DNA from: a virus
Reading direction: 5' to 3' (one strand)
Virus record (IMG/VR): IMGVR_UViG_3300021071_000003
Span: 1 to 24,976 of that record
Length of the DNA stretch: 24,976 nt
A program made the translations under genes and the position numbers. The stretch's first letter is position 1. Every line of letters begins with the position of its first letter. The notes beneath the pieces are model-generated. The model saw nothing but the letters and a program-made list of their open reading frames with translations. It was not told the DNA's origin and ran no database searches. Below are positions 3,338 through 24,367 of this stretch, in pieces.

Positions 3338-3357
3338 AGCCTCGCCCGTGCTGTCAA
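3338..3357 (-). promoter_or_regulatory. Start-associated element of the ParB-like gene (reverse-strand copy)
   Basis: On the reverse strand TTGACA is followed 20 nt later by the GTG start at 3337. The arms ACAGC and GCTGT are complementary, and the second overlaps the start codon. This is the only reverse-strand copy found. Confidence 0.6.
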
Positions 3358-3369
3358 CCGCTTGACAGC
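3350..3369. promoter_or_regulatory. Palindromic operator candidate in the divergent switch region
   Basis: GCTGTCAACCGCTTGACAGC is a perfect inverted repeat of two 8-nt arms around CCGC. It sits between the divergent ParB-like and HTH genes and overlaps the -35 box of the HTH gene promoter. It is the natural operator for the small HTH protein encoded next to it, though binding is inferred. Confidence 0.6.
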
Positions 3370-3392
3370 CGTGTGCGTGTCTCGCGTAGGAT
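3362..3392 (+). promoter_or_regulatory. Sigma70-type promoter, possibly giving a leaderless mRNA
   Basis: TTGACA at 3362-3367 and TAGGAT at 3387-3392 are separated by 19 nt. Transcription would begin about 3399-3400, which is the A of the HTH gene ATG, and there is no Shine-Dalgarno. Leaderless repressor mRNA is known for lambda cI from PRM. The spacer is longer than ideal. Confidence 0.5.
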
Positions 3393-3399
3393 TGCGCCC

Positions 3400-3606
3400 A
3401 TGACTCGGAAGGAATTTCAAAAGACTATCCAACGCTGGCGGGCCAAGAACGGGTTCACCCAGCAGGATGCAGCCGATCACCTCGGGATTTCCATCCGCAC
3501 GCTCCAGAACTGGGAAATCGCCCGCAACATGCCAACCGGGTATGGGCTCAAGGCGTTGCTGGCAGAATTGAAGCGATCAAAGGTCAATCGGGCTTCAGCC
3601 GTTTAA
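3400..3606 (+). CDS. Small Cro/C1-type helix-turn-helix regulator (68 aa)
   Basis: Start chosen at ATG 3400; an upstream GTG (3373) would lie inside the promoter. The protein is almost entirely one HTH domain: FQKTIQRWRAKNGFTQQDAADHL, then GISIRTLQNWE as the recognition helix, then RNMPTGYGLKALLAEL. This is the Cro/C1/Xre fold with no extra dimerisation or protease-sensitive domain, so it resembles Cro or a plasmid-type regulator more than full-length CI. It probably binds the palindrome at 3350-3369, controlling itself and the divergent ParB cluster. Its 3' end overlaps the convergent reverse gene by 23 nt. Confidence 0.85.
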   Translation: MTRKEFQKTIQRWRAKNGFTQQDAADHLGISIRTLQNWEIARNMPTGYGLKALLAELKRSKVNRASAV

Positions 3607-3796
3607 AATAGTGGATTCCAAACGTGATTTCCCCATCACGACTCAGCGGGAATACGCCTGTCATTTCCCAGCCTTGATCTCCGAGATCGTTGATGGCCTT
3701 CTCTACTTCCAGAAGATGCTCATCTGTGCGCGTCATGGTCATGCTAATCTTTTCTGGTGATTCCACGAGCAAGGTTTTGTATTCGAATCGCGGCAT
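3584..3796 (-). CDS. DUF4177-like small protein, cargo gene
   Basis: A 70-aa reverse-strand protein with the layout of the DUF4177 family: an FEYKTLLV strand at the N-terminus, a central helix (EVEKAINDLGDQGWEM) and a C-terminal strand ending HYFKRLKPD. The family is of unknown function and widespread in bacteria and phages. The gene lies between the HTH regulator and the small terminase, opposite to the late operon. Its base composition is visibly richer in A and T than the flanking late genes. The start at 3796 is 60 nt from the divergent small terminase start. It fits an independently acquired moron. Family match moderately sure. Confidence 0.7.
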   Translation of the reverse strand: MPRFEYKTLLVESPEKISMTMTRTDEHLLEVEKAINDLGDQGWEMTGVFPLSRDGEITFGIHYFKRLKPD

Positions 3797-3837
3797 ATTC
3801 AAAGAATACTCAGAGAGCGTGCCTTGTATAGCCAAGG

Positions 3838-3856
3838 TTGACTCCATCCCGCGTGG
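3838..3856 (+). promoter_or_regulatory. Start-associated element, small terminase
   Basis: TTGAC begins 19 nt before ATG 3857. CCATCC (3844-3849) and GGATGG (3855-3860) form a perfect 6-bp inverted repeat with a 5-nt loop, and the start codon lies inside the second arm. The arms differ from those of all other copies but stay complementary. Confidence 0.65.
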
Positions 3857-4462
3857 ATGGAACCGATTCCGCCCGAGGTAGCGCGCAAACTTCTCAACCG
3901 TGATTTCTCCAACCTGATCCAGCGGGTTCAGGGAGGCGGAAAGCTCACGCGCTCCGAGCGCAACATGCTCCAGGCGATGGCCGCCGGGTCGGTGGCGAGC
4001 GGTATCACGCTTGCGGCGAACTACAACGAACTGGCCGAAGCGCTCGGGGTGACGCGGCAGGCGATTCATTCCTGGCGGAAACTCGAAGGCGCACCGGAGG
4101 CGAACGCGAACGGCACGCACGAAGTGGCGGTCTGGCGGGAATTCGTGAAGCAACGCGGGCTCAAAAACGAAGAGGACGTTTCGGATGTGGAGTCGTCGCT
4201 CAAAGCCCGGAAGTTGCTCGCCGAGGTGATGGAACGCGAGTTCCGCCTCCAAGTGAAGCAGGGCGAATACGTGTTGCTTGATGACGTGAAAACCCGGTGG
4301 GCCTACCACGTCGGGCAGGCAGTGGCGCTCCTGCGCAAGCGGCTTGAACAGGAAATCCCGCCGATCCTCTCCGGCCTCGATGCGATCGCGATCCGCAAAG
4401 AGCTTTCCATCGCCGTGGATGAATTCGCGGCAATCCTCCATGACGGCGAACAAGCTGGATAA
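3857..4462 (+). CDS. terS: Terminase small subunit (Nu1-like DNA-binding packaging protein)
   Basis: Protein of 201 aa. A helix-turn-helix at about residues 55-75 (YNELAEALGVTRQAIHSWRK) is the expected pac/cos recognition domain of lambda Nu1-type small subunits. It is followed by a long charged helical part (SLKARKLLAEVMEREFRLQ) and a C-terminal helical region for contact with the large subunit. It lies immediately upstream of the large subunit and overlaps it by 23 nt, the usual coupling. The start at ATG 3857 is preceded by the start-associated hairpin rather than a Shine-Dalgarno. Role: binds phage DNA and loads the large subunit for head filling. Confidence 0.85.
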   Translation: MEPIPPEVARKLLNRDFSNLIQRVQGGGKLTRSERNMLQAMAAGSVASGITLAANYNELAEALGVTRQAIHSWRKLEGAPEANANGTHEVAVWREFVKQRGLKNEEDVSDVESSLKARKLLAEVMEREFRLQVKQGEYVLLDDVKTRWAYHVGQAVALLRKRLEQEIPPILSGLDAIAIRKELSIAVDEFAAILHDGEQAG

Positions 4463-6251
4463 AATCTGGAGGGATGTCTGGCGTCCGCCGGACCGCCGTC
4501 CCCCGTGGGCATGGGCAGAGGAGCACATCGCCTCGATCCCCTATTCGCCAGTGCCGGGTCGGTTCCGATCTGACCACTCGCCATGGCTGCGCGAGCCGCT
4601 GGAGGCATTGGTGGATCCAAGCGTCCGCATCGTTTCGATCATCGCCGCGATCCAGTGCGGAAAGACGAGCGTGGGCGAGGTCGGCATTTCCTACATCATC
4701 GCCAACCTTCCCGGTCCCGCGCTCTGGCTCGATCAGACCGACGACGACGCCCGCGACCAAAGCGAATCCCGTCTCCAGAAGCTGTTCGATGAATGCGCCC
4801 CTGTGCGTGCGCTTTACCCCCGCGATCGGCACAAAAAGAAAACCGCCGCGATCCAGTTTTCAAACGGCATGACGCTTTGGATCCTCGGGGCGCACAACAA
4901 GACAAACCTTCAGCGGCGGTCGATCCGCTATCTCATCGCTGATGAATGCTGGAGGTACCCGCCCGGCCACATGGCGGAAGCCGAAGCCCGAGTCACCGCG
5001 TTCGGCTGGCTCGGCAAATGCCTGTTCATGAGCCAGGCCGGGGAGGAAGGCGACGATACATCCCGGAAATTCGAGACGACCGACCAGCGGGAATGGACGT
5101 TCGCCTGCCCGAAGTGCGGCACCCGCCAGCCATTCAAATGGGAAAACGTCGAGTGGAGCAAATCCGCCCGCCGGGACGACTACGAATGGGACTACGGCGA
5201 AGTGCGCCAGACCGCCTCGCTGCGCTGCGATGGATGCAACCACTACTTCGAAGATACGGACAGGGTCCGGCGGGAGCTGAATGCAACCGGAAAATTTGTC
5301 CCGCAGAACCCGCATGCCTCTCCCGAGAACGCCGGGTTCCACTGGAATTCTCTCTGCGCGATGAGCTGGGGACGGCTGGCTGAACTTTACCTCCGGGCGA
5401 AGGCGGTTTCCAGGCAAGGTGACTTTTCCCTCCTCCAGCAGTTTTACCAGAAGCGTCTCGCGATCCCGTGGCGTGAAACCAGCGAGGACTACAAACTGGA
5501 AATCGAACGCACCGGATACCGGAAGGGCGAGCTGTGGGACGAAGAGGCGGCATTCGACAAAACCGGCCACATCATCCCCGGCCCGTATGACCCCGCCGTG
5601 ATTTCCGCCCCGCTTCGCGTTCTCACCGTGGACGTGCAGATGGATCACCTGTTCGCCGTGGTTCGGGCCTGGAGCGCCAATGGTTCCTCCCGGCTCATTT
5701 GGAACGAGAGAATCCTTACCTTCGAGGACATCCGCACATTGCAGGAACGGTTTACGGTCCACCCGAACCTCGTGTTCCTGGATGCCGGCCACGCGGCCTA
5801 CGAGGTGTATCGCCAGTGCTCGGAATACGGTTGGACAGCACTTATCGGCGACCGCCGCCCGACATTCGTCCACCGGGGCCGCGACGGAAAATCAGTCCAT
5901 CGGTTTTATTCGCCCCGCCGGAAGGTGGTCCTCGGCCACAACAAAAGCTGCTCGGTGTTCTACTGGTCGAACCTCAACTGCAAAGACATCCTCGCCCGGC
6001 TCCGGCGCAACCAACGCCCGGAGAAAGGCGCGACATGGGAAGTGCCCGACGACATCGACGACGATTACCTCGCTCAGATGGAAAGCGAGCACCGGGTCAA
6101 GGACGGAGGGAAGTGGATCTGGCGGCAAATCGGATCACGCCCGAACCACCTCTGGGACTGCGAGGCCATGCAGGTCGTGGCCGTCGTCATGCTCAAGCTG
6201 GTCGGGCGGGAGTTTTCGGCATCAGAGCCCGTCAGCGAGGAGGAATCATAG
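4440..6251 (+). CDS. terL: Terminase large subunit (lambda gpA family)
   Basis: Protein of 603 aa from ATG 4440, inside the end of terS; upstream in-frame codons are shadow sequence of terS. The ATPase half shows AAIQCGKTS (about 69-77) in the Walker A position and RYLIADECW (about 163-171) as Walker B with its acidic pair. Two cysteine pairs, CPKC (223-226) and CDGC (263-266), suggest an inserted zinc ribbon as in gpA relatives. The nuclease half includes LTVDVQMD (395-402), FLDAG (446-450) and a late HLWDCEA, giving acidic metal ligands of the RNase H-like fold. It cuts concatemers and pumps DNA into proheads. Length is close to lambda gpA (641 aa). The stop overlaps the end of the convergent cargo gene by 6 nt. 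Confidence 0.93.
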   Translation: MTANKLDKIWRDVWRPPDRRPPWAWAEEHIASIPYSPVPGRFRSDHSPWLREPLEALVDPSVRIVSIIAAIQCGKTSVGEVGISYIIANLPGPALWLDQTDDDARDQSESRLQKLFDECAPVRALYPRDRHKKKTAAIQFSNGMTLWILGAHNKTNLQRRSIRYLIADECWRYPPGHMAEAEARVTAFGWLGKCLFMSQAGEEGDDTSRKFETTDQREWTFACPKCGTRQPFKWENVEWSKSARRDDYEWDYGEVRQTASLRCDGCNHYFEDTDRVRRELNATGKFVPQNPHASPENAGFHWNSLCAMSWGRLAELYLRAKAVSRQGDFSLLQQFYQKRLAIPWRETSEDYKLEIERTGYRKGELWDEEAAFDKTGHIIPGPYDPAVISAPLRVLTVDVQMDHLFAVVRAWSANGSSRLIWNERILTFEDIRTLQERFTVHPNLVFLDAGHAAYEVYRQCSEYGWTALIGDRRPTFVHRGRDGKSVHRFYSPRRKVVLGHNKSCSVFYWSNLNCKDILARLRRNQRPEKGATWEVPDDIDDDYLAQMESEHRVKDGGKWIWRQIGSRPNHLWDCEAMQVVAVVMLKLVGREFSASEPVSEEES

Positions 6252-6689
6252 CACCCCGTGCAATTTTGCGGAAATCAAGGGTGCGAGGAACAGGACTAAA
6301 AATCCGATCGAAAGCAATCCCCCTCTCCGGAAGTCGAAATCCGCAAAAATCCGCTTCCACGGAACGCGAAATACAAATCGTCCGAAATAGATCTCCAACC
6401 CGAACATAAGGACAATCCAGAGCAACCCTGTGGCTAGGCATTCCTGCACAGTCGTTGCGGCGATCCAAGGCAAGGTAATGAAGGCAATGAGAATAATCAG
6501 TCCGGAGCCTGTAAAAACAGCAATTTGCCGGGCACGCTTGTCGCCGACACGACGATTCAGCATTTTCACCCGGAGAGCCCCATGCACGACCTCGGTGACA
6601 GCAATCAACAACCACACCACCCCAGCTCTGATAAGGTAATCCACCCAAAGAGAAGTAGGCAGGCTGTCCTGACCGTGCAAGGGATTCAT
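6246..6689 (-). CDS. Membrane protein of unknown function, cargo gene (147 aa)
   Basis: Reverse-strand protein beginning at ATG 6689, preceded by GAGG at suitable spacing. Four hydrophobic spans are visible at about residues 18-37, 63-82, 87-104 and 124-141. Between the first two lies a conserved-looking loop RRVGDKRARQIAVFTGS, and between the last two a GRFVF and DFRRGG pair. This pattern recalls a family of hypothetical bacterial membrane proteins, not a standard phage gene. It is inserted between large terminase and endolysin, facing the wrong way, with lower GC than its neighbours. It could change the lysogen's envelope or block superinfection; no evidence decides this. Confidence 0.72.
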   Translation of the reverse strand: MNPLHGQDSLPTSLWVDYLIRAGVVWLLIAVTEVVHGALRVKMLNRRVGDKRARQIAVFTGSGLIILIAFITLPWIAATTVQECLATGLLWIVLMFGLEIYFGRFVFRVPWKRIFADFDFRRGGLLSIGFLVLFLAPLISAKLHGVL

Positions 6690-6701
6690 TGCAACCTCAG
6701 G

Positions 6702-6720
6702 TTGACGCCGCGTCGGGTTC
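6702..6720 (+). promoter_or_regulatory. Start-associated element, endolysin gene
   Basis: TTGAC begins 19 nt before ATG 6721. GACG (6704-6707) and CGTC (6711-6714) pair around CCG. It lies in the 31-nt gap between divergent genes. Confidence 0.55.
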
Positions 6721-7236
6721 ATGGACCTGATCAAACGACTCCTGGAAATCGCCACCCACGAGGTGGGCACACACGAAGTAGGCGGTAACAACCGCGGCCC
6801 CCGCATCGTCGCATACCAATCTGCCACATGGCTCAAACCCGCCCCATGGCCGTGGTGCGCTGCCTTCATCTGCTGGATCTTGCGCGAATGGCTCAAGTCG
6901 CCGGAGGTTTTGGCGAAATTGTCGTTACGTAACAACAAAGAGGCCGAAAACTGGCGGCCGAAAACAGCGGGCGCGTTCGACTTCGAGCGGTGGGCGAAGG
7001 AAAAGGGGCTTGCCGTCCTGAACAAGAAATCACTCGCGAAGGCCGGGGATCTCGTCGTTTTCGAGTTCTCTCACATCGGCATCGTCGTGAAGGACCAGAT
7101 TTCACCGGAGTCGATCGAATGCATCGAGGGGAACACGAACGGCAGCGGCCAGCGTGACAGCAATGCGGGCGACGGCGTGTGGCGCAAGCGCCGCGCTGCC
7201 TCTCTGGTTCGCTCGTTCATCCGGATCATCCGTTGA
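6721..7236 (+). CDS. CHAP-domain peptidoglycan hydrolase (endolysin candidate)
   Basis: Protein of 171 aa. Residues about 42-52 (PWPWCAAFICW) hold the cysteine nucleophile in the usual CHAP/NlpC-like context. Residues about 107-123 (AGDLVVFEFSHIGIVV) carry the catalytic histidine with the preceding GD turn, and IEGNTNGS follows as the third conserved block. No signal peptide is visible, so a holin would be needed. It sits between the terminase and the gpW-like connector, far from the holin/spanin genes at the right end, so it could also be virion-associated. It contains a copy of the 16-bp palindrome (6921-6936). Domain call confident; cell-lysis role likely but not proven. Confidence 0.85.
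   Translation: MDLIKRLLEIATHEVGTHEVGGNNRGPRIVAYQSATWLKPAPWPWCAAFICWILREWLKSPEVLAKLSLRNNKEAENWRPKTAGAFDFERWAKEKGLAVLNKKSLAKAGDLVVFEFSHIGIVVKDQISPESIECIEGNTNGSGQRDSNAGDGVWRKRRAASLVRSFIRIIR
6921..6936. repeat. 16-bp palindrome, site 2
   Basis: GTCGTTACGTAACAAC: one arm mismatch around a perfect ACGT centre. It lies in the endolysin gene and encodes LRNN. Confidence 0.7.
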
Positions 7237-7251
7237 CACCCGCCGTCCGGC
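7233..7251 (+). promoter_or_regulatory. Start-associated element, gpW-like gene
   Basis: TTGACA begins 19 nt before ATG 7252, and its TGA is the stop codon of the endolysin gene. Pairing is weak here (GCC/GGC around GTCC). Confidence 0.55.
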
Positions 7252-7503
7252 ATGGCTGTGATCGACTACTACACCGGGTTCACCAAAGAACAGGTCAGCA
7301 AAATCCTAGCTATCCAGCAGGAGGAGCTCCCAAAGACGATAGCTGCCTGGACGGATTCCGGATCAAGCGTCCAAAAGCGTAAGTTGGATGAGATTCATGC
7401 CATTATCGCAGGCTGCCAAGCCGCCCTTCGCAAATTCGACCCTGAAACCTACGGGCGCGGGCGGCGTGTCGTCCAATCCACCGTTGACTATATTCCTCGA
7501 TGA
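7252..7503 (+). CDS. gpW-like head-tail connector candidate (83 aa)
   Basis: Small, mostly helical protein placed between endolysin and portal; in lambda the position between large terminase and portal belongs to gpW. A central helix-turn-helix-like stretch (SVQKRKLDEIHAIIAGCQAAL) is followed by KFDPETYGRGRRVVQS, a short basic strand region that fits gpW-family proteins only loosely. gpW plugs the portal after packaging and is needed to attach the tail. The 3' end overlaps the portal start (ATGA), implying translational coupling and a matching stoichiometry. Assignment rests mainly on position and size. Confidence 0.6.
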   Translation: MAVIDYYTGFTKEQVSKILAIQQEELPKTIAAWTDSGSSVQKRKLDEIHAIIAGCQAALRKFDPETYGRGRRVVQSTVDYIPR

Positions 7504-8957
7504 ACCTGATCCCAAAACTCGCCCGGTTCGTTGTCCCGGCCGCATTCCTGCCGAAAGCCTGGGCGTCGCCCTACGATGCGGCAAATTGGTCCCCGAATCG
7601 TGGCCGTGTGCCCGGCTCCGCTCCCCGCGACGCCAAACTCGATCTCTCCCCCGGTGTCAGGACTGAACTCGTCCGCCGATCCCGCTACCTCCACCGCAAT
7701 TCCGGGTTCGTGCGCGAGATGGTCTCCAACATGGCGATCTACTCCACGGGCGACGGCATCCGTCCCCAGGCACAGTCGGCCGATCCGGACTGGAACCGCC
7801 GCGCCGAGGAAATCTTCCGTCGCTGGTCTGCCCAGTGCGAGGTGACAAATCGGTTTTCCTTCGAGGAATGCCAGTCGCTCGTCTGCCGGGGGATGGATGT
7901 GGACGGCGAGTTCTTCGTCTTAAAAACCCGCGACCGCGGCGGCCTGCCGCGCATCCAGCTCATCGAAACCCACCGGATCGGCGATGATTCAGAGGAAACC
8001 TGCGACGGAGTCGGGCTCTCAGCGGACGGTTCGCCGTCGTTCTACCGACTCATTGAAGATTCCGGCCCCCGCGACATCCCGGCGGCTTCGATGCTCCATG
8101 TTTTTGAACCCGAGTCCGTGAGTGCGGTGCGCAATGCGCCGACGATCCAGCATTCGATTAATCACTTGCTCGACGAGATGGAACTTCTCGCGCTTGAAAA
8201 ACATGCCGTGAAGGACAATGCGGACGTGGCTCGAATCCTCAAAACGGCCCGTGGGGAAATTGAGGATACCGGAGACTTTTCCATCGGAGCACAGGCCAAT
8301 CAGCCGCAGGCAAGCGACGCCGCCCAGCTCCAGAAAATCATCGGTGGAAAATTGGTCGCGCTCAAACCCGACGAATCCTTGGACAGCTTCCAGTCGAATC
8401 GGCCATCGCCCACATTTACTGGTTTTCTCGAACACCTGCACCGCAGTGCCGCGCTTGGAGTGCTGCCATTCGAGTTCGCTGCGGATTCATCAAAAATTGG
8501 AGGAGCAGGGGTCAGGTTGGTGGTTGCGAAAGCGGACAGGCGGTTCTCGTATCGTCAGTTGATCCTCATCAACCGGCTGATCGAGCCGGTGTGGGCGTAT
8601 GTGATCGGTGATGCCATCGCCCGCGGCGAACTTGCAGCCCAACCGCAGTGGTGGAGGATATCTTCGACCACACCAAAGCGGGTCTCGGTAGATGCTGGGC
8701 GCGAATCACAGCAGAACCGGGCGGATGTGGAAATGGGCCTCAAAACGATTTCTCAAAGCTACGGTGAACTGGGCCTCGATTTTGAAGAGGAGATGCGAGT
8801 CCGCGCCCGCAACGCGAGGTTCCTAGTGGATCTGGCGGCCGAATTTCAAATTCCGCTGGAGATGCTATGGAAAACAAGCGGGGGCATTGCCACCACACCC
8901 GCAGTTGGAGAAACCCAAGACCAGCAGCCGCTCCCAGGGGTTCGGCAGTCTGGGTAA
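7500..8957 (+). CDS. Portal protein (lambda gpB family)
   Basis: Protein of 485 aa, slightly shorter than lambda gpB (533 aa). Matches in order include a RTELVRRSRYLHRNSGFVRE helix near residue 57-76, GDGIRPQ (84-90), FSFEECQSLVCRGMDVDGEFFV (about 118-139), LIETHRI (151-157) and a C-terminal DFEEEMRVRARNARFL helix. A dodecameric portal forms the DNA entry vertex and the docking site for terminase and tail. Its ATG overlaps the stop of the gpW-like gene. A TTGAC occurs 16 nt before the start, off the 19-20 nt rule. The stop codon directly abuts the stop of the convergent cargo gene (TAATCA). Confidence 0.92.
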   Translation: MNLIPKLARFVVPAAFLPKAWASPYDAANWSPNRGRVPGSAPRDAKLDLSPGVRTELVRRSRYLHRNSGFVREMVSNMAIYSTGDGIRPQAQSADPDWNRRAEEIFRRWSAQCEVTNRFSFEECQSLVCRGMDVDGEFFVLKTRDRGGLPRIQLIETHRIGDDSEETCDGVGLSADGSPSFYRLIEDSGPRDIPAASMLHVFEPESVSAVRNAPTIQHSINHLLDEMELLALEKHAVKDNADVARILKTARGEIEDTGDFSIGAQANQPQASDAAQLQKIIGGKLVALKPDESLDSFQSNRPSPTFTGFLEHLHRSAALGVLPFEFAADSSKIGGAGVRLVVAKADRRFSYRQLILINRLIEPVWAYVIGDAIARGELAAQPQWWRISSTTPKRVSVDAGRESQQNRADVEMGLKTISQSYGELGLDFEEEMRVRARNARFLVDLAAEFQIPLEMLWKTSGGIATTPAVGETQDQQPLPGVRQSG

Positions 8958-9260
8958 TCAGAATCCCGGCTTGCCACGTTCTGCCAGCGGCACGGCAAGA
9001 GTCATCTCGATATGCTTTCGCAGTTCGCGAACCTTTGGAATAAAATCCAACTCCTCGTCCTCCGTGACATCCCACTCATCAATGTAGCTTTTGGGGGATT
9101 TTTGGATTGACCTCACATGGGCAAGAATCCCCAGGAGATACTCGTCCTCATTCTGGTATCGCGAGCACGCCGCCCCGAGTTCGGCCCGCAGACAATCGCT
9201 CGCTTCGCCAGCAAGCCCGATGCTCTCGTAGGCCATTTCTGTGAGTTCGTCGGTATCCAT
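8958..9260 (-). CDS. Small acidic helical protein of unknown function, cargo gene (100 aa)
   Basis: Reverse-strand gene whose stop abuts the portal stop. The translation is acidic and helical, with a central DEYLLGILAHVRSIQK helix and a DEWDVTEDEELDFIPK acidic stretch; no membrane span or signal peptide. No family was recognised. It sits between portal and protease, where lambda has no gene, and faces against the late operon. Its composition is less GC-rich than the flanks. It is probably transcribed separately, for example in the prophage state. A TTTGTTT-type terminator was not seen. Confidence 0.65.
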   Translation of the reverse strand: MDTDELTEMAYESIGLAGEASDCLRAELGAACSRYQNEDEYLLGILAHVRSIQKSPKSYIDEWDVTEDEELDFIPKVRELRKHIEMTLAVPLAERGKPGF

Positions 9261-9307
9261 AGCTCAGAAAATATGACCGGCTGATCCTCTCGGCGCAACC
9301 CGGCTGA

Positions 9308-9327
9308 TTGACACGGGGTTTCACGGC
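9308..9327 (+). promoter_or_regulatory. Start-associated element, head protease gene
   Basis: TTGACACGG begins 20 nt before GTG 9328. GGTTTCAC (9317-9324) pairs with GTGAACC (9328-9334) with one bulged T and a 3-nt loop, so the start codon is in the stem. Confidence 0.6.
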
Positions 9328-10728
9328 GTGAACCTCACACTCCTTCAAAAACAGCCATGGCTGATCGCGCCCGAAGCTCTCGGGGCGATGGTCGCCGCCA
9401 CGAAATCGTTCTTCGACAACGCGCCGGATCTTCCTGAGCGCCCGAACTCGCCATGCCTTTCTGTGGAAGACGGCGTGGGCGTGATTTCGATCACCGGCCC
9501 GATGCTCCGCAACCCGGACATTTTCGACCGGATCATCTTTGGAGCCTGCGACACCGGAGAACTCATCAATGCCGTGGCCGAGGCTGCTGCCCGTCCCGAC
9601 ATCGAGGCCATCTTCCTCGACATCGATTCCCCTGGCGGATCGGTCAATGGCACTCCCGAACTCGCCCAGGCAGTCGCCGACGCCTCCAAGACAAAATACG
9701 TCTATGCGTTCAGTGCCGGCCAGATGTGCTCTGCCGCCTACTGGGTCGCGAGCCAGGCGGATGCGATCTACGCCACCCCGAGCGCACGGATCGGATCCAT
9801 CGGCGTGATCCTGCCCGTCGTGGATTCTTCGGCGGCCTTCGAGCAGGCGGGGCTGAAGGTGGAAGTCTTTGCGGCGGGCAAATTCAAAAGCGCTGGCACT
9901 CCCGGCACGAGCCTCACCGACGACCAGCGGGCCTGGCTTCAGTCGGAGGTCGAGGAAACCGCCGCTGACTTTCACGCCGCCGTGCTCGCCCGCGGGCGCA
10001 AGATCCCTGACGAGGCGATGGAGGGACAGACATTTTCGGCCCGGAAGGCGATGCGGTTCAACTTGGCCGGAATGGTGGCGAGTCGTGCGGAAGCGCTGTC
10101 CCGTCTGCGGAAACTCCATGTTCGTTCGGTTGACACGGGTTCCGGTGCAATGAGCGCACCAACAATCGAAAACGAACTCGCCCAGGCCCGTGAGCAAATC
10201 ACCCGCTTGGAAGCCGACGCTGCGGCCCGGGATTCACTCCTGACCGAAGCCAACACCAAATTCACCGAGGCAACCTCCACAGCTTCCGGCCTGCAATCCC
10301 GCCTGGAGGTTCTCGAATCCGAGCGCCAGATCGAGGCGGAATCCCTCGCCCAGCTCCGCGTCGATCTCGATGCCGCACGCGCCACGAACGCTTCGCTCGC
10401 CAGCGACAAGGACGCGATCGCCTCTCAGCTCAAGGAAATCGAGACGAGCAACGCCTCCCTCAATCTCAGCCTAAAAGAAATCCAGACCCGCAACGCCGCC
10501 CTGGAAGCCGCCGAGCAGGATTTGGAAAAGAGGGCCTCGCTTCGCGCCGCCCAGATCGTCGCAGAAACCGGCACTTCGGCTCCGGCCAATGTGACCCCGA
10601 AAGGCGAGCCGCAGACGGCCAGCCTCCTGGAGCGGTTCCGCGCGATCACCGATCCCGCCGAGCAAACCGCCTTCTGGCAGAGCCTCTCCGCCGACCAGAA
10701 GAACCAAATCCTGTCCTCAACCAAGTAA
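9328..10728 (+). CDS. S49-family head maturation protease with C-terminal scaffold domain (lambda gpC-like)
   Basis: Protein of 466 aa from GTG 9328. Residues 1-270 are the S49 (SppA-like) serine protease: IFLDIDSPGGSVNG at 95-108, the nucleophile in QMCSAAYWVAS (Ser135), RIGSIGV (154-160) and a lysine in FAAGKFKSAGTP (Lys185/187). The rest (from about 275) is a coiled-coil, Ala/Glu/Gln-rich scaffold, ending with FWQSLSADQKNQIL. In lambda, C and Nu3 share a frame in just this way, and the protease removes scaffold and itself during maturation. Located between portal (after a cargo gene) and capsid. The GTG lies in a start-associated hairpin; no Shine-Dalgarno. Confidence 0.92.
   Translation: MNLTLLQKQPWLIAPEALGAMVAATKSFFDNAPDLPERPNSPCLSVEDGVGVISITGPMLRNPDIFDRIIFGACDTGELINAVAEAAARPDIEAIFLDIDSPGGSVNGTPELAQAVADASKTKYVYAFSAGQMCSAAYWVASQADAIYATPSARIGSIGVILPVVDSSAAFEQAGLKVEVFAAGKFKSAGTPGTSLTDDQRAWLQSEVEETAADFHAAVLARGRKIPDEAMEGQTFSARKAMRFNLAGMVASRAEALSRLRKLHVRSVDTGSGAMSAPTIENELAQAREQITRLEADAAARDSLLTEANTKFTEATSTASGLQSRLEVLESERQIEAESLAQLRVDLDAARATNASLASDKDAIASQLKEIETSNASLNLSLKEIQTRNAALEAAEQDLEKRASLRAAQIVAETGTSAPANVTPKGEPQTASLLERFRAITDPAEQTAFWQSLSADQKNQILSSTK
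10130..10149 (+). promoter_or_regulatory. Start-associated element at an internal start (scaffold)
   Basis: TTGACACGGG begins 20 nt before an in-frame ATG at 10150 inside the protease gene. GGTGC (10144-10148) pairs with GCACC (10156-10160), enclosing the ATG in the loop. Confidence 0.6.
10150..10728 (+). CDS. Nested scaffold protein (lambda Nu3-like), in-frame with the protease
   Basis: An internal in-frame ATG (codon 275 of the protease) would make a 192-aa protein beginning MSAPTIENELAQ. It contains only the coiled-coil part (about residues 4-120) and a C-terminal helical tail, the make-up of a capsid scaffold. Lambda produces Nu3 from an internal start in gene C. Here the start is supported by a full copy of the start-associated element at the same spacing as in the other late genes. 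It would supply scaffold in excess of protease. Direct proof would need N-terminal mapping. Confidence 0.68.
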   Translation: MSAPTIENELAQAREQITRLEADAAARDSLLTEANTKFTEATSTASGLQSRLEVLESERQIEAESLAQLRVDLDAARATNASLASDKDAIASQLKEIETSNASLNLSLKEIQTRNAALEAAEQDLEKRASLRAAQIVAETGTSAPANVTPKGEPQTASLLERFRAITDPAEQTAFWQSLSADQKNQILSSTK

Positions 10729-10734
10729 CATCCC

Positions 10735-11628: not shown

Positions 11629-11647
11629 TCTGTGGTTCGGTTGCAAG

Positions 11648-11677
11648 CCCCCGCATCAGCAATGGTGCGGGGGTTTT
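11648..11677 (+). terminator. Rho-independent terminator after the capsid gene
   Basis: CCCCCGCA (11648-11655) and TGCGGGGG (11666-11673) form a perfect 8-bp GC stem with a 10-nt loop, followed by TTTT (11674-11677) and more T-rich sequence. Reading on the reverse strand there is no T run, so it acts mainly on forward transcripts. It would give high capsid mRNA and lower tail gene mRNA. Confidence 0.85.
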
Positions 11678-11682
11678 GTGTT

Positions 11683-12003
11683 TCAGACGACATTGCTCAC
11701 GCCAAGACGTGCTGCCAAGGCGCGGAGGCTGTCTTCCTCCGGCTTAAATCCGTGATAAGCCAACTGCTCGCCAACTGCTCGAAAGAACTCCATGTAATCC
11801 GCGTTGGAGCATTCCAAGGAAAAGAGCCCTTCTTCTTCAACCGCTCGCTCAACCAACGTCAGCCCGACCTCGGTCAAAGCCAGATCACTGTTGAGAATGT
11901 ATTCCCGTTCTTCTGAGGAAAACGTGAGCGATTTTGTTGAGGGAGTTTCCACAAAACATATTGTGCGCCATCCAGAGGCAATTTCAAGCAAGGCCGTTGA
12001 CAC
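11683..12003 (-). CDS. Small protein of unknown function, cargo gene (about 106 aa)
   Basis: Reverse-strand gene between the capsid terminator and the head-tail joining gene. Two GTG starts are possible, 12027 and 12003. The 12003 start was preferred because the longer form would overlap the forward gene start at 12016 and because its GTG is the reverse-strand end of the palindrome CACGCCCGGCGTG. The protein has a SLTFSSEEREYI stretch and mixed helices (LTEVGLTLVERAVEEEGLF; LRALAARLG); no membrane span. No family recognised. Its composition is less GC-rich than the flanking genes. Start uncertain; coding status fairly likely. Confidence 0.62.
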   Translation of the reverse strand: MSTALLEIASGWRTICFVETPSTKSLTFSSEEREYILNSDLALTEVGLTLVERAVEEEGLFSLECSNADYMEFFRAVGEQLAYHGFKPEEDSLRALAARLGVSNVV

Positions 12004-12015
12004 GCCCGGCGTGGC
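11997..12015 (+). promoter_or_regulatory. Start-associated element, head-tail joining gene
   Basis: TTGACA begins 19 nt before ATG 12016. CACGCC (12001-12006) and GGCGTG (12008-12013) are perfectly complementary. On the reverse strand the same palindrome supplies the likely GTG start of the cargo gene. Confidence 0.65.
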
Positions 12016-12321: not shown

Positions 12322-12719
12322 ACACGGACATCGAACGGGGCTTCGTGGCGGTGATCCAGGCGGCAATGCCGGGAGTGCATGTGCGGGAGGCGACCAGTTC
12401 AAAGCCGCATCCATCGGACGCTCAGATGGTCATCGTCGAGTGCCCGGAGTGCGAACATGTGGCGGGACCGCTTTACCGGGCAACCGTGAAAGTGCATCTC
12501 GGCACGCCTGCTTTCGATATGGGCGAGTCCCGGCACCGGGAGGCGGCCGGCATGATGGCGCTCTCGCTTCTCGATCCAGCCGAGGCGAAGATCCTGTTCG
12601 ATGCCGCTGCCGGCAGTATCTCACTCCACGGGTTCCACGTCCGCTCGCAGGGGGAGGATATTGTCGAGAACACCTGGCGTTCGACCATCGAACTCGTTGC
12701 CGGGATCCGCCTCGGTTGA
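12318..12719 (+). CDS. Tail terminator / tail completion protein candidate
   Basis: Protein of 133 aa, coupled by ATGA overlap to the joining protein. It starts with a helix (DIERGFVAVIQAAMPGVHVRE), then strands and a second long helix around HREAAGMMALSLLD, ending with a strand pair (GFHVRSQGEDIVENTWRSTIELVAGIR). Helix-strands-helix-strands and length fit tail terminators such as gpU and other siphophage head-completion/tail-completion proteins, which cap the tail tube next to the head. Position between joining protein and tail tube genes agrees. Exact homology not certain. Confidence 0.6.
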   Translation: MNTDIERGFVAVIQAAMPGVHVREATSSKPHPSDAQMVIVECPECEHVAGPLYRATVKVHLGTPAFDMGESRHREAAGMMALSLLDPAEAKILFDAAAGSISLHGFHVRSQGEDIVENTWRSTIELVAGIRLG

Positions 12720-12734
12720 CATGGCCGTCGGTGC
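12716..12734 (+). promoter_or_regulatory. Start-associated element, 70-aa tail gene
   Basis: TTGACA begins 19 nt before ATG 12735 and its TGA is the stop of the upstream gene. Pairing is weak: GGCC at 12723-12726 with GGCC at 12737-12740. Confidence 0.5.
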
Positions 12735-12947: not shown

Positions 12948-12948
12948 C

Positions 12949-13257: not shown

Positions 13258-13262
13258 TTTTT

Positions 13263-13577: not shown

Positions 13578-13603
13578 TCAATTTCACACCAACCGATCCC
13601 ATA

Positions 13604-15384: not shown

Positions 15385-15403
15385 TTGACACGCCCCATCC
15401 GGC
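15385..15403 (+). promoter_or_regulatory. Start-associated element, tape measure gene
   Basis: TTGACA begins 19 nt before GTG 15404 and directly follows the upstream stop. CACGCC (15389-15394) and GGCGTG (15401-15406) pair perfectly over a 6-nt loop, with the start codon as the last three bases of the stem. Confidence 0.65.
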
Positions 15404-17806
15404 GTGGCCGACATCACAGCCAGATTCCGTCTCGATATTTCCGGCATTGATGCCGCGCTCGCCCGTGTAGCTGCTGCAACGATCGCTGTCCAAGGCGCAT
15501 TCGCCGCCGCCAATACTGCGCTTGCCCCATTCGCGAGTGCTTTCTCCGCAATCAAAGAATCCCTCGACCTGGGTGGGCAGCTGACGGATATGAGCGCCCA
15601 GACCGGAATCGCCGTGGGCGATCTTGTCGTGTTGCGACAAGCATTCGCCAACGCGGGCATGGACGCCGAGCAGGTAGGACCGGCAATCAACCGGCTTCAA
15701 AAGGCGCTCGGTGGGATCAACGAGGACGGGGAGCCGACAAACAAGGCGCTTGCCGCACTCGGGATCTCAATGGGTGAACTCCAATCGCTCAACCCCGCCG
15801 AACAATTCTCGCGGGTATCGGCTGCGCTTGCGGCGATTCCCGACACGACCGAGCGGGCGGCAACTGCCATGGGGATCTTCGGACGCAAAGGAGCCGCGTT
15901 GCAGGCGATTTTCCTGGATGGATCGGCAATGGACGTCGCCCGGCAGCAAGTCGGCGGGCTTGCGGACACGATGCAGGCGAACGCATCGAAGTTTGATTCC
16001 ATATCGGACGCACTCGGGGCCGCAAATCTGAAAGGCCAGCAGCTTGCAGCCGGGTTCACTGCGGCCATCGCCCCCGCGCTGGAGGAAATCGGCAACGCTC
16101 TCAACGCGACCGATCTGACCGGCCTTGGCGAATCACTGGGAGAAATCGCAGCGACAGCCATCCGTTTCGGCCAGGCGCTTTCGGGCATGATCCCGCAGAT
16201 CGTCGGGGTGGTGGCGGCAATGGCCCTCTACCGCGCTGGGTTCGACACGAAGGTGGTGAGCGCCATGAGCAACATCGGGCCGGCGGCATCCCGGGCGTTC
16301 GCCCAAGTCCGCGTCGCACTCGCCGCGATGAACTTTTCGAGCGTGGGCGCGGCCGCCCGCACCGCTTTTGCCGGGATAGGCATGGCGGCACGCGGGGCAG
16401 CGTTGGCGATCAAAGGCGCTCTCATTTCCACCGGCATCGGCATCCTGATCGCGGGAATCGCGGCAGCCATCGAGGTGGTCATCGGGAAAATCCAGCAGGC
16501 CAAGGAAGCGACCCGTGCTGCGGGGGCGGCGAGCAGCGACACGCTCAAGGCGGTGACCTCCATCGCGGCAGAAATGAAAACCGTGTCGAGCGAGGCCGAC
16601 AAAGTCGATGTAGGCAAGCGCATCGACCAGGATATCGAATCTGCCAAGGAATCGCTCGCCGGGCTCGCAGACCAGTTCGAAAACCTTTCGCCTGAGCAGC
16701 GAAACGACATCTCCAAAGAATACAACCTGCGCATCCGGCTTCTGGAGCAGATGAAGGCGAGCATGGCCGGGATCACGCCCGAGGTCATGGCGCAACGACA
16801 AGCAGAGAAGGATCGCGCCGCAGCACTGGCGGAAAGCCAGCGGAGGGCGGCGGCACTCAGCGGCGAACTGGGCAAAAACAAAGAGGCGCTCGACAAGAAG
16901 ATCGCCGACGCAGCGTTCAGCGAGCTATCCGCTACCGACCAGAAAGATGCGACTCTTGCGGGGGTGGGGGCGTCCTCCACTGCAAACGTGGACGCCGAGA
17001 TCGCGCTCCTGGCCGCCAAGCGGGAATCCTCCTCGCTCACAAACGATGAGGTCATCCGAATGCAATCGCTCATCGATGCGCGGGAAAAGCTCATCGGGGT
17101 CGAGCGCGACCTCGCCCGCGAACGCGAGCAGGCGGCCAAGAAAGCCGAGGAGGACGCGAAAAAGGAAGCCGAGGCGGCAGCGAAGAGGACCGAGTTCACC
17201 CGCGACGTGAACCGGGAGATTGCGCGGGCGAAGGCGCAATCATCCGGCGACAAGGAAACCGTGAAGCGGCTCGACCACGAGGCGCAGCTCGCCCAGGAAA
17301 CCAAACAGGGGATCTCGGCGGGCTTGGATCCAAAAGAGGCCGCACGGTTGGCAAACGAGAAGGTCGGCGCACTCGACACGGCCGCAGCCGCCCAAAAAGA
17401 CGAGGAAAACCGAAAGACGCTCACCGCCCTCGATCTCGAAACCAGGCTCGCCGAAGCAAAGGCGGCCGGAAACAAAGAGGAGGCCGCACGGATCGAATGG
17501 CTGCAAAAATACAACTCCGAGCTCGCCCGGCTGCGGGACGTGATGCCGGAAGCAGACGCGCAGGCGGCAGCCGCCAGGTTGGCCAACGCACAGTCTGCCG
17601 GTGATCCCCAAGCCGCCCAGGAACGGTCCGGCGCCCTTTATTCCTCCTCGATGGCCAAGATCGGCGCGGGTGGAAATTTCGTTTCAGGAAGCTCGGATCC
17701 GATCCTGACCGAAAACCGTCGGCAGACATCCATCCTCGAGCGGATTGCGCGGTCTGTCTCGCGCCAGGGCAGCCAGAGCACAGAGCTCAACTACACGCTC
17801 GCTTGA
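15404..17806 (+). CDS. Tape measure protein
   Basis: At 800 aa it is the second longest protein here, Ala-rich and helical, in the place of lambda gpH. The N-terminus (ITARFRLDISGIDAALARVAAATIAVQG) and the FSAIKESLDLGGQLTDMSAQTG stretch are typical of tape measure proteins, as is MGIFGRKGAALQAIF at about 151-166. Hydrophobic spans lie near residues 257-279 and 329-361, expected for DNA ejection through the membrane. A long charged coiled coil covers about 440-720. Length sets tail length; at about 0.15 nm per residue the tail would be near 120 nm. GTG start in a start-associated hairpin. Confidence 0.9.
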   Translation: MADITARFRLDISGIDAALARVAAATIAVQGAFAAANTALAPFASAFSAIKESLDLGGQLTDMSAQTGIAVGDLVVLRQAFANAGMDAEQVGPAINRLQKALGGINEDGEPTNKALAALGISMGELQSLNPAEQFSRVSAALAAIPDTTERAATAMGIFGRKGAALQAIFLDGSAMDVARQQVGGLADTMQANASKFDSISDALGAANLKGQQLAAGFTAAIAPALEEIGNALNATDLTGLGESLGEIAATAIRFGQALSGMIPQIVGVVAAMALYRAGFDTKVVSAMSNIGPAASRAFAQVRVALAAMNFSSVGAAARTAFAGIGMAARGAALAIKGALISTGIGILIAGIAAAIEVVIGKIQQAKEATRAAGAASSDTLKAVTSIAAEMKTVSSEADKVDVGKRIDQDIESAKESLAGLADQFENLSPEQRNDISKEYNLRIRLLEQMKASMAGITPEVMAQRQAEKDRAAALAESQRRAAALSGELGKNKEALDKKIADAAFSELSATDQKDATLAGVGASSTANVDAEIALLAAKRESSSLTNDEVIRMQSLIDAREKLIGVERDLAREREQAAKKAEEDAKKEAEAAAKRTEFTRDVNREIARAKAQSSGDKETVKRLDHEAQLAQETKQGISAGLDPKEAARLANEKVGALDTAAAAQKDEENRKTLTALDLETRLAEAKAAGNKEEAARIEWLQKYNSELARLRDVMPEADAQAAAARLANAQSAGDPQAAQERSGALYSSSMAKIGAGGNFVSGSSDPILTENRRQTSILERIARSVSRQGSQSTELNYTLA

Positions 17807-17825
17807 CACGCCCCCTTCATTACCG
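17803..17825 (+). promoter_or_regulatory. Start-associated element, loose copy
   Basis: TTGACACGCC begins 23 nt before ATG 17826, and its TGA is the tape measure stop. The spacing is 3-4 nt longer than in the other copies and no clear stem is visible, so this may be a degenerate copy. Confidence 0.4.
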
Positions 17826-20110: not shown

Positions 20111-20112
20111 GC

Positions 20113-20571: not shown

Positions 20572-20990
20572 TCCGCTTCACGCTCGACCAACTGCGGGAA
20601 AAGGCGGCAATCCGTCCGCCTGGATACTTCGAGGACGTGCTCGCGGCAGCCTCGGTGGAAGGCGACTCCGTCACGCTCGACCAGGCGGCTTACCAGATCC
20701 TCGCCGGCAAGTATCGTGGAACAAGCGCCGCGCCTCGCCCCCAGGAACCAACCGCCGCCGAACTGGCCGCCAATTTCAGTTCCGCGCTCGCCCGGTGGTC
20801 GTCGGCGGGTTTTCCGGTGGTATCCCGCGAAATCTACGAAGCCCGCGCCACCGTATGCGCCCCGTGCGAGTTCTGGGATGGAGCAGCCCGCCTTGGCCTC
20901 GGAAAATGCCGCCACAAAAAATGCGGGTGCACAAAGATGAAGCGCTGGCTCGCCACGGAAAAATGCCCGCTTGGCAAGTGGGGCGATTGA
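20568..20990 (+). CDS. Tail-region protein with C-terminal cysteine motif (140 aa)
   Basis: Start at ATG 20568, overlapping the stop of the cysteine-rich neighbour. The N-terminal 75 residues are helical (MIRFTLDQLREKAAIRPPG; TLDQAAYQILAGKYRG). The last 45 carry CAPCEFW, then CRHKKCGC, then TEKCPLGKW: a six-cysteine motif common in small phage proteins encoded beside tail-fibre genes. It most likely binds zinc or an iron-sulfur cluster. Two adjacent cysteine-rich genes at the tail tip are unusual. The gene's TGA is part of the start-associated element of the fibre gene. Confidence 0.68.
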   Translation: MIRFTLDQLREKAAIRPPGYFEDVLAAASVEGDSVTLDQAAYQILAGKYRGTSAAPRPQEPTAAELAANFSSALARWSSAGFPVVSREIYEARATVCAPCEFWDGAARLGLGKCRHKKCGCTKMKRWLATEKCPLGKWGD

Positions 20991-21006
20991 CACGGGCTCC
21001 CCGTGC
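20987..21006 (+). promoter_or_regulatory. Start-associated element, fibre gene
   Basis: TTGACA begins 20 nt before ATG 21007. CACGGG (20991-20996) and CCCGTG (21000-21005) form a perfect 6-bp stem with a CTC loop. Best-formed copy in the window. Confidence 0.7.
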
Positions 21007-23475: not shown

Positions 23476-23480
23476 TCGCC

Positions 23481-24002
23481 ATGAAATTCTCCATCATCCC
23501 ATCACCAACCGGCACTCACGTCGCTAAGAACGGACGACGTGTGGACATTGTCACCGCCGAAAACGGCAAAGACTACGAATCCCAAGCGGCGTTTCTCACG
23601 GCCATGGGGATCCAGCCGCTCGCGCTTTTCGTTGCCAAGCAAACAGCCATCGCTGAACTCCAACAGGCGCACGAGAAATCTCTCCGCGACGGGATCACTC
23701 CAGACGGGGCCGCATTTGTCCTGCCGGCTGAAATCGAGTGGCAGAACAAATTCACGGGAATGGTGACGCTCCTGCAGACAGCGCTCCTGGCTGCCTCAAA
23801 CAAGGCGGCCCGGGACGCCATTCTTGCGGCACCGTCCGTCATTCCCGACAAAACGGGCGCGATCCACCCGATCACGAATCAGGAACTTCTGGCCCTGCTC
23901 AGCAGCTACGGCCAGAAAATCCAGACGAAGGAAGTCGTCCTCGCAACCAAACAAGCTGGGATCGCTGCGGCAACATCCGTGAGCGAACTGGCACCAAAAT
24001 AA
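23481..24002 (+). CDS. Fibre-associated protein of unknown function (173 aa)
   Basis: Start at ATG 23481, 5 nt after the fibre stop; the upstream open frame is shadow sequence. The N-terminus (SIIPSPTGTHVAKNGRRVDIVTAENG) is beta-like and the rest helical (LALFVAKQTAIAELQQAHEKSL; FTGMVTLLQTALLAASNKAARDAIL). Small helical proteins directly after a fibre gene are often fibre assembly chaperones or fibre-linked components, and this is the best guess. The stop overlaps the next ATG (TAATG). No family recognised. Confidence 0.65.
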   Translation: MKFSIIPSPTGTHVAKNGRRVDIVTAENGKDYESQAAFLTAMGIQPLALFVAKQTAIAELQQAHEKSLRDGITPDGAAFVLPAEIEWQNKFTGMVTLLQTALLAASNKAARDAILAAPSVIPDKTGAIHPITNQELLALLSSYGQKIQTKEVVLATKQAGIAAATSVSELAPK

Positions 24003-24280
24003 TGGACAACGACCCGCTCCACGACCTTTCTGATCGCTGCGAACTGTGCCGCGAATCCGTCCGCGACCGCCTTGCTGCCTTCGACCGCCGACTCCTCGCG
24101 CTCGAAATCGTTGTCCGCGGCGAGGACGGCCGCAACGGCATGAAGGCCCAGCTCACAGGGCTATGCGAACGCTTCGATGCCTTTGAGAAGAAAGCCATCC
24201 GATGGATCGCGGTCGGCACGAGTCTGCCTGGTGTCGTGGTCGGCGTGGTTGCCGTGCTGAAGTTCCTGGGGCGGTTGTAA
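24002..24280 (+). CDS. Small membrane protein with N-terminal helical domain, holin-accessory candidate (92 aa)
   Basis: 92-aa protein with a charged helical N-terminus containing CELC, a predicted coiled-coil (DRRLLALEIVVRGED; LTGLCERFDAFEKKAIRW) and one C-terminal hydrophobic span (about 69-90, VGTSLPGVVVGVVAVLKFL). Helix plus one membrane anchor resembles XhlA-type hemolysin or holin-accessory proteins. It lies next to other small membrane and spanin-like genes. Coupled to the preceding gene by TAATG. Lysis role by analogy only. Confidence 0.65.
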   Translation: MDNDPLHDLSDRCELCRESVRDRLAAFDRRLLALEIVVRGEDGRNGMKAQLTGLCERFDAFEKKAIRWIAVGTSLPGVVVGVVAVLKFLGRL

Positions 24281-24347
24281 GCCGCGCTGGGATTGCGTTT
24301 ATCAGCCGGTTTCCCCGCGTTTCCGGCGACGGATGTAGGGGAAGTGG

Positions 24348-24367
24348 TTGACACCCGCGCCGGTGGT
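24348..24367 (+). promoter_or_regulatory. Start-associated element, holin-like gene
   Basis: TTGACA begins 20 nt before ATG 24368. CACC (24352-24355) pairs with GGTG (24362-24365) over a 6-nt loop. The gap 24281-24347 upstream holds no gene. Confidence 0.6.

Follow-up and report, generated by a model that had tools for sequence, protein, structure and literature searches.

The start codons of phage genes are arranged and marked in several ways. Phage lambda has a head protease open reading frame (ORF), C, with an in-frame internal start for the scaffold, Nu3, which is used by ordinary Escherichia coli initiation. The epsilon sequence of phage T7 is an upstream translation enhancer, a word on the mRNA that lies upstream of the Shine-Dalgarno (SD) region and raises initiation. 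The start-associated sequence (SAS) of cluster K mycobacteriophages, GGGATAGGAGCCC, is typically located 3-7 bp from the start, contains AGGAG and belongs to the non-structural half (PMC3203893). Here, we deal with another element, which was noticed in the complete 24,976-base IMG/VR virus entry IMGVR_UViG_3300021071_000003. This record, the whole of which is called the window below, encodes a tailed-phage late block, and many of its genes have the word TTGAC beginning 19 or 20 nt before ATG or GTG. The element is real and is found throughout a clade of Verrucomicrobiota phages. Judging from sequence comparison, it is probably a non-SD translation-initiation signal on the late mRNA of these phages.

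The first-pass annotation of the window had listed twelve starts preceded by TTGAC, and all of them were found again in their places. The distance is 19 nt for the starts 3857, 6721, 7252, 12016, 12735 and 15404, 20 nt for 9328, 10150, 21007 and 24368 as well as for 3337 on the minus strand, and 23 nt for 17826. As had been said, most copies read TTGACAC (8/12), the exceptions being TTGACAT (12735), TTGACAG (3337), TTGACTC (3857) and TTGACGC (6721). The word itself is not over-represented in the window, where 35 copies on both strands compare with 45 +/- 6 in shuffles; therefore, only its placement is unusual. TTGAC stands 19-20 nt before 11 of 33 tentative starts, while for 56 other offset pairs the count averages 0.09 and does not exceed 2 (Poisson P ~7e-20), and 10 of the 19 plus-strand copies of the word are followed by ATG or GTG at 19 or 20 nt (binomial P ~1e-8), P values that are illustrative because the tentative starts were chosen by the analyst from ORFs. 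The site before 17826 (plus strand) keeps its place in the list with an amendment. Its spacing of 23 nt was confirmed, and it looks like a lengthened copy when compared with a relative, G015, in which TTGACACGCCCCGATACCGATG with 19 nt spacing occurs 2,418 bases after the tape-measure element. The G015 site is taken as the orthologue because this is the same distance as that from 15385 to 17803 in the window. Another relative, L085, retains the 23 nt spacing. The portal start 7500 has TTGAC 16 nt ahead of it, at 7484, but this copy was left out of the count, as it codes for VDY in the overlapping gene; it is present in the two closest portal rows among those printed.

The lock to start codons is not limited to this record. 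Relatives were collected as 158 viral loci, found by similarity of terminase or capsid (best 80 for each query), and 80 genome loci. Among the best 80 of 106 terminase loci in genomes, nearly all are from Verrucomicrobiota (Prosthecobacter, Akkermansia, Chthoniobacterales, Opitutales and others), and three titles name Bacteroidales, Planctomycetota and Gemmatimonadetes. The viral loci contain 550 distinct TTGACA copies, and 316 of these are followed by ATG or GTG at 19 (191) or 20 nt (125), against about 12 per position elsewhere, and the corresponding figure for TTGACAC is 205 of 306. There is a further surplus at offsets 15 (59), 22 (55) and 23 (34), for which neighbouring start codons and the element's G-rich end may be partly responsible. 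The genome loci show the same arrangement in 204 of 452 TTGACA copies, with a background of about 10 per position. When 1543 starts (from ORFs with 120 codons or more and no further ATG or GTG in the 45 nt that follow) were subjected to an unbiased k-mer search, TTGAC beginning at -21 to -19 was the top 5-mer, observed 189 times with 10 expected. At orthologous mapped starts the word is retained while its flanking sequence diverges, and the lock holds in relatives with only ~28-40% protein identity among the rows printed. The first-pass annotation had allowed that the placement might be at chance level or that relatives might keep the genes and not the element; what was found is that other spacings carry no excess and that relatives retain the element along with the genes.

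What does the element look like, and which known signals does it contain? For a non-redundant set required to begin with TTGACA (156 elements at 19 nt, 94 at 20 nt), the consensus is D-TTGACA-(10-11 bases)-GGY-RTG, the spacer being C-rich in its left half and G-rich in its right half. C preceding TTGACA is rare (4% at spacing 19, 1% at spacing 20), and the G+C content of the spacer is 0.73 and 0.68, respectively, compared with 0.59 upstream. No -10 box accompanies the hexamer: TANNNT is located 15-18 nt after TTGACA in 2/156 and 0/94 elements (4.8 and 1.1 with shuffled tails), and a consensus promoter scan of window positions 3000-18000 called none of the elements there a promoter. This absence at sigma-70 spacing agrees with the earlier statement that a promoter for the same gene is excluded, although outright exclusion is slightly too strong in view of a possible leaderless promoter of some unfamiliar type. 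The claim that these genes lack an SD also stands, with SD words in 7/156 and 6/94 elements, at or below the 11.4 and 7.7 of spacer-shuffled controls. Stems such as CACGCC..GGCGTG are seen by eye in the spacers of several window sites, but an obligate hairpin was rejected as a part of the element, since hairpins are common and not required. Column-pair covariation over the 156 and 94 elements revealed no fixed stem register, elements of the AT-richer Opitutales prophages have little or no predicted stem, and no Rfam family matched the window above the gathering score. Against within-sequence shuffles, the folding of spacers has mean quantiles of 0.37-0.42 in six settings (0.5 expected; 0.47 and 0.49 for the upstream control), and against column-shuffled controls the z values are -2.9 and -2.3, which is a weak tendency only.

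Presence of the element trades off with coupling to an upstream stop codon. This was analysed in 910 mapped starts, from which only identical contexts had been removed, so that near-identical ones remain; 391 of them have the element. The upstream stop was accepted from any open frame of 50 codons, a noisy rule by which some starts are misclassed. If the stop is 0-14 nt away, the element is found in only 5/163 starts, while the counts are 95/120 at 15-20 nt, 61/131 at 21-40 nt, 134/217 at 41-150 nt and 34/48 where no upstream stop was found. Overlaps of 1-8 nt give 48/183 and deeper ones 14/48, both classes being noisy by the same rule. With near-duplicates removed, 243/386 uncoupled versus 43/221 coupled starts carry the element (family-stratified Cochran-Mantel-Haenszel p 2e-12). 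The contrast is also seen within families, such as TerL (11/18 uncoupled, 2/35 coupled) and that of gene 7252 (41/47 uncoupled, 1/25 coupled). Where the gap is 15 or 16 nt, TGA within TTGAC is itself the upstream stop, as at 7233 and 12716. Thus, the remark of the first-pass annotation that genes without the element mostly overlap or closely follow an upstream gene is right across all families and within several of them, but not in every family.

One of the twelve sites was misjudged in its context. The start 10150, which had been taken as that of a separate gene, is an internal in-frame start inside the protease ORF, and it is probably the start of the scaffold. An in-frame element before an internal ATG or GTG occurs in 64 of 81 distinct protease-scaffold ORFs and is absent in the other 17. 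All 64 have a spacing of 20 and all are located at residues 269-280. The four residues ahead of the internal start codon occur in 32 different forms. The element opens with the codon GTT in 62/64 and ATT in 2/64; in the aligned portions of these ORFs, with duplicates counted, 582 of 3903 Val codons are GTT. From the varied spacer peptides and the preference for GTT it follows that the word is retained at the nucleotide level inside a coding sequence. In the undeduplicated ORF set, spacing 19/20 accounts for 79 such elements, and each of six other spacing pairs for 0 to 9.

Table 1. Elements and genes in the window. Lengths count from the first base of TTGAC to the base before the start codon; for the mapped-start counts of 3337, 3857 and 9328, identical contexts were removed and near-identical ones kept.
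Feature	Position	Strand	Remarks
Element, 20 nt	3338..3357	-	before ParB-like gene start 3337; in 57/72 mapped starts
Element, 19 nt	3838..3856	+	before terminase small subunit start 3857; in 44/91 mapped starts
Element, 19 nt	6702..6720	+	before endolysin start 6721; in 16/16 distinct relatives
Element, 19 nt	7233..7251	+	before start 7252; the TGA in it ends the preceding gene
Element, 20 nt	9308..9327	+	before GTG 9328 (protease-scaffold); in 98/104 mapped starts
Element, 20 nt	10130..10149	+	within ORF 9328-10728, before in-frame ATG 10150
Element, 19 nt	11997..12015	+	before start 12016 (head closure); in 36/40 distinct relatives
Element, 19 nt	12716..12734	+	before start 12735; the TGA in it ends the preceding gene
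Element, 19 nt	15385..15403	+	before GTG 15404 (tape measure); in 9/10 distinct relatives
Apparently lengthened copy, 23 nt	17803..17825	+	before start 17826
Element, 20 nt	20987..21006	+	before start 21007 (fibre-like, weak match)
Element, 20 nt	24348..24367	+	before start 24368; one relative found, element present
Contrast: sigma-70-like promoter TTGACA-19-TAGGAT	3362..3399	+	TTGACA 38 nt before ATG 3400
ParB-like protein	start 3337	-	assigned by eye
Helix-turn-helix (HTH) protein	ATG 3400	+	assigned by eye
Terminase small subunit	start 3857	+	
Large terminase	~4450-6251		assigned via relatives
Endolysin	start 6721	+	
Portal	start 7500	+	
Head maturation protease and scaffold	ORF 9328-10728	+	GTG start
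Major capsid	start 10735		
Head closure	start 12016	+	
Tape measure	start 15404	+	GTG start
Fibre-like protein	start 21007	+	weak match

The sigma-70-like promoter in Table 1 ends 7 nt before the ATG of the HTH gene, and 7 of the 11 printed relatives have TTGAC 36-39 nt before the start. Its -35 box and the divergent element of 3337 together form an inverted repeat, GCTGTCAAGCGGTTGACAGC, with 8-base arms (3350-3369, minus strand). Other features of the window are a terminator-like hairpin of 14 pairs at 11645-11676, directly after the capsid gene and ahead of a minus-strand inserted gene, and a dispersed palindrome, GTTRCGYAAC, at 131, 6924, 12186 and 24747, which lies inside predicted genes and three times codes for LRN-like stretches. 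The viral relatives have 78 distinct copies of this palindrome against 0-12 for seven control palindromes, and the genome loci have 28 against 0-8; there are 2 in 600 kb of the Akkermansia genome G010 and 0 in 400 kb of the host genome G006. Upstream of 13604, six of seven distinct relatives share the word ACCGATC, and none of them has TTGAC there.

How far does the element extend among phages? This was compared in 66 of 238 loci, which were hand-picked for length and a few of which are copies of one another. Loci with a terminase identity of at least 54% have 2-12 sites against 0.4-3.0 expected, and L212, at 53%, has 2 against 3.4. Those at 35-41% are variable (1-8 sites), and those at 30-34%, from Pedosphaerales and others, mostly do not rise above background, with 0-3 sites. 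The element is used mainly by late genes. Viral contigs were also scanned with the exact pattern at its real spacing and at a shifted one; only loci among the matches listed were examined, and the totals were not compared. Homologues of clade proteins are encoded in 47 of 117 such loci with the real spacing and in 8 of 120 with shifted spacing. The 47 loci have a mean of 2.83 elements against 0.30 at other spacings, while real-spacing loci without homologues have 0.67 against 0.31, and because of this low mean much of the exact-pattern scan is background. A decoy for such scans is seen in L277, from a 452,799-base contig, where several TTGACA-like sites with RTG at 19-20 nt, e.g., ATGCTATGTT, resemble extended -10 promoters.

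Two other phage groups show related arrangements. The isolate P8625 of Puniceicoccales (L498), the sole phage record matching the capsid protein (22% identity, two accessions), has nothing at 19-20 nt among its 52 annotated starts. Instead, TTGACA is located exactly 36 nt before four of them (5412, 10736, 15558 and 22406), and inverted repeats of the GTATCCA..TGGATAC type, perfect or imperfect, are present in three of the four spacers. The possibility that P8625 has the same system with a longer hairpin was rejected, as TTGACA at exactly 36 nt suits leaderless promoters better; clear TANNNT boxes at the proper place are also missing in this phage. In another group, the spacer after TTGA is the palindrome CCGTTACGTAACGG or a close variant of it. 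A start codon is found at 19 or 20 nt in 8 of 9 copies on contig 3300042863_002375 (L328, L556 and L557; the copies in L328 are at 5492, 6181, 9573 and 10304) and in 4 of 5 on contig 3300042446_002409 (L554 and L555), and these starts open frames of more than 70 codons, including the tape measure. L558 has one copy with a start, and L553 and L559 have copies without a start.

We consider it fairly likely that the element marks translation starts, because it is locked to them, tied to the absence of coupling and used internally, has neither promoter nor SD, and occurs in phages of hosts one of which is classed as SD-scarce. The idea that it is an initiation signal for uncoupled genes, already raised in the first-pass annotation, is well supported by the lock at low protein identity, the absence of SD and -10 excess, and the link with non-coupling. 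Akkermansia muciniphila is classed as SD-scarce (PMC10783764), and about 10% of its transcription start sites are leaderless by Cappable-seq (PMC4782308). A late cistron in the middle of a message would have no 5′ end and no SD of its own in hosts that seem hardly to use SD pairing and partly to use leaderless mRNAs, and the phage may mark the start of such a cistron by UUGACA. The position of UUGACA is about that of the upstream edge of the 30S footprint. With the start codon in the P site, UUGACA might be held by a ribosomal protein or an RNA-binding factor, and so rigid a spacing points to a single rigid body as the reader of the two. A spacer hairpin, where formed, would shorten the distance between the two, folding being optional. 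We infer that the element acts on RNA, that it recruits the ribosome and that a reader exists. Three longer phage records (G014, covered for 40,000 of its 40,723 bases, G016 and G018) have little in common beyond their structural cassette and the gene for the ParB-like protein, which makes it probable that the reader belongs to the host or is encoded in the late cassette; in mechanical ORF lists, without a profile search of early proteins, the proteins common to the three were structural, terminase or ParB-like, and no phage-borne reader was found. As a tentative extension, UUGACA at -20 could be a third way of marking internal bacterial cistrons, SD-independent, position-locked and read by a host or phage factor.

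Several observations weigh against a translational signal. The early genes of the three longer relatives are mostly without the element, for which ordinary host ribosomes as readers would not account alone. SD-like words are slightly raised across all phage starts (0.133 vs 0.088, with GAGG near -6), so that some phage genes may use SD; the hosts give 0.089 vs 0.107 and 0.110 vs 0.089. A G+C-rich start region is also unusual for SD-less initiation. The hosts themselves do not appear to use the element: TTGACA followed by ATG or GTG at the two positions 19 and 20 nt counts 24 against ~20 expected in 600 kb of G010 and 4 against 3.6 in 400 kb of G006, the stretches used for this test, and only 3/224 and 0/191 host starts have TTGAC at 18-21 nt. 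Neither TGTCAA nor GTGTCAA is present in the 16S rRNA of three hosts (G003, G007 and G008; G006, G010, G004 and G012 yielded no 16S match), whose 3′ end retains CCTCC. Pairing of TTGACA with 16S rRNA was rejected, there being no 6-base complement in these three molecules. The trade-off with coupling has its own exceptions, as the element is present in 21/23 protease starts (9328) and 7/9 ParB-like starts classed as coupled, and among uncoupled starts it is present in 35/67 and absent in 32/67 of the terminase small subunit, and present in 1/17 and absent in 16/17 of the portal. The major capsid gene has it in 0/46, of which 22 have a gap of at least 15 nt or no stop found, and gene 13604 in 0/8, all uncoupled. 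The coupling contrast is, moreover, partly geometric, because the element does not fit between the genes when the gap is short.

Whole host genomes and the leaderless genes of the hosts bear on the same issue. Counts of the pattern exceed those of a backward-pattern control in 12 of 13 genomes, strongly in some (G010 95 vs 27, G011 118 vs 37 and G007 40 vs 11), with little excess in G013 (58 vs 57) and fewer than the control in G005 (23 vs 26). Some hits cluster in prophages, since 9 of the 44 ATG hits of G010 are on contig C15, taken as the prophage contig of L197, and the spacing control in the G010 and G006 stretches suggests that the backward pattern is a poor control. In G010, TTGAC is found at 34-37 nt in 10/224 starts against 1-3 in three other four-position windows, TTGACA copies (ATG only) have a modest excess at 35 and 36 nt (11 and 11; background mean 6.0, maximum 11), and CTTGA near -40 is the top host 5-mer (10 observed, 1.8 expected). 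TTGAC at about 36 nt in this genome fits leaderless genes.

The main rival, which we regard as unlikely, is a leaderless late promoter, at which RNA polymerase with altered or phage-supplied specificity would read TTGACA at -20 and begin the transcript at the A or G of the start codon. The rigid spacing of 19-20 nt would be natural for it, as would the pyrimidine at -1 and purine at +1, as at transcription starts, and these two points tell against a translational signal at the same time. Starts with TTGAC at about -36 in G010 and P8625 are expected of leaderless promoters, the late-region bias of the element agrees with such a promoter, and the hairpin after the capsid gene would demand a restart before 12016. 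However, there is no second box, the DNA is G+C-rich just where it has to melt, and C before TTGACA is avoided, unlike in the host -35. Among proteins common to the three longer phages no RNA polymerase or sigma factor was recognized by eye, without a profile search of early genes. The internal in-frame start and the genes lying 15 nt past an upstream stop would also imply many promoters in one gene block. Processing of mRNA is rather improbable in our judgement: a nuclease would cut near UUGACA, and the new 5′ end would lie close to the start codon, so that the messages resemble leaderless ones. Leaderless mRNAs exist in A. muciniphila (PMC4782308), the spacers fold somewhat better than column-shuffled ones, and one other phage group has a perfect palindrome as its spacer; but the elements of Opitutales prophages with little or no predicted structure, the lack of a nuclease candidate, and a spacing tight to one base without a reason all speak against processing.

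It is very improbable that the element has nothing to do with initiation and serves on the DNA as the target of a phage regulator or of modular recombination at gene borders. It is indeed repeated, asymmetric and phage-specific, the copies at 6721, 9328, 12016 and 3857 come after minus-strand inserted genes, and that of 3337 is half of GCTGTCAAGCGGTTGACAGC. A plain operator, the other suggestion of the first-pass annotation, is nevertheless unlikely because an operator need not keep 19-20 nt to a start codon, and the lock to start codons in a single orientation, the copy inside the protease ORF ahead of an in-frame ATG, and the trade-off with coupling do not suit a recombination site either. 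Lastly, there is hardly any chance that the element results from coincidence or from gene calling, e.g., from extended -10 promoters (TTGACA-N14-RTG-N-TANNNT) mistaken for starts. Other contigs, L277 among them, do have promoter-like sites that yield TTGACA...RTG at 19-20 nt, but TANNNT is nearly absent from the elements at 15-18 nt, the starts are N-termini of conserved proteins, and no excess exists at other spacings; as a general account, the artefact is already refuted.

If the element is a translation-initiation signal, phages of SD-poor and partly leaderless hosts could run long late operons with it and place internal in-frame starts. For the question of how a start codon is chosen in mid-operon in SD-poor bacteria, it offers a short, strongly conserved experimental handle which trades off with coupling, and it is present in prophages of Akkermansia and other Verrucomicrobiota. 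It improves gene calling in these phages, as in the case of the internal scaffold start, and provides a sequence mark by which the clade can be recognized in metagenomes.

How does it compare with the systems mentioned at the beginning? The element is apparently undescribed, as no recognisable description of it was found in the open-licence PMC literature. Among described kinds, the SAS of cluster K mycobacteriophages comes nearest; both are short asymmetric repeats at gene starts, phage-specific, rare in the host and spread across different genes, sometimes with the upstream stop codon inside, and a role in translation initiation has been proposed for SAS (PMC3203893). Likewise, the TTGACA element is repeated at starts and scarce in the host, the latter for the 600 kb of G010 and the 400 kb of G006 that were tested. 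Unlike SAS, it stands at 19-20 nt, has no SD and precedes mostly late structural genes, in other phages and hosts, and the SAS consensus has 8 matches in the window, all with 3 mismatches, against 8.0 +/- 2.7 in shuffles; the distinction from SAS drawn earlier is thus borne out by both distance and consensus scan. The putative leaderless promoters of G010 and P8625, with TTGACA at about -36, share the hexamer and, in P8625, a similarly rigid distance, and the element differs from them in its 19-20 nt position, its lack of a -10 box and its G+C-rich spacer. Unlike the epsilon sequence of T7, it has no full complement in the 16S rRNA of three hosts, no SD and a far stricter spacing. The protease ORF with its internal start resembles the C/Nu3 arrangement of lambda, and unlike in lambda, the internal start here bears the TTGACA element.

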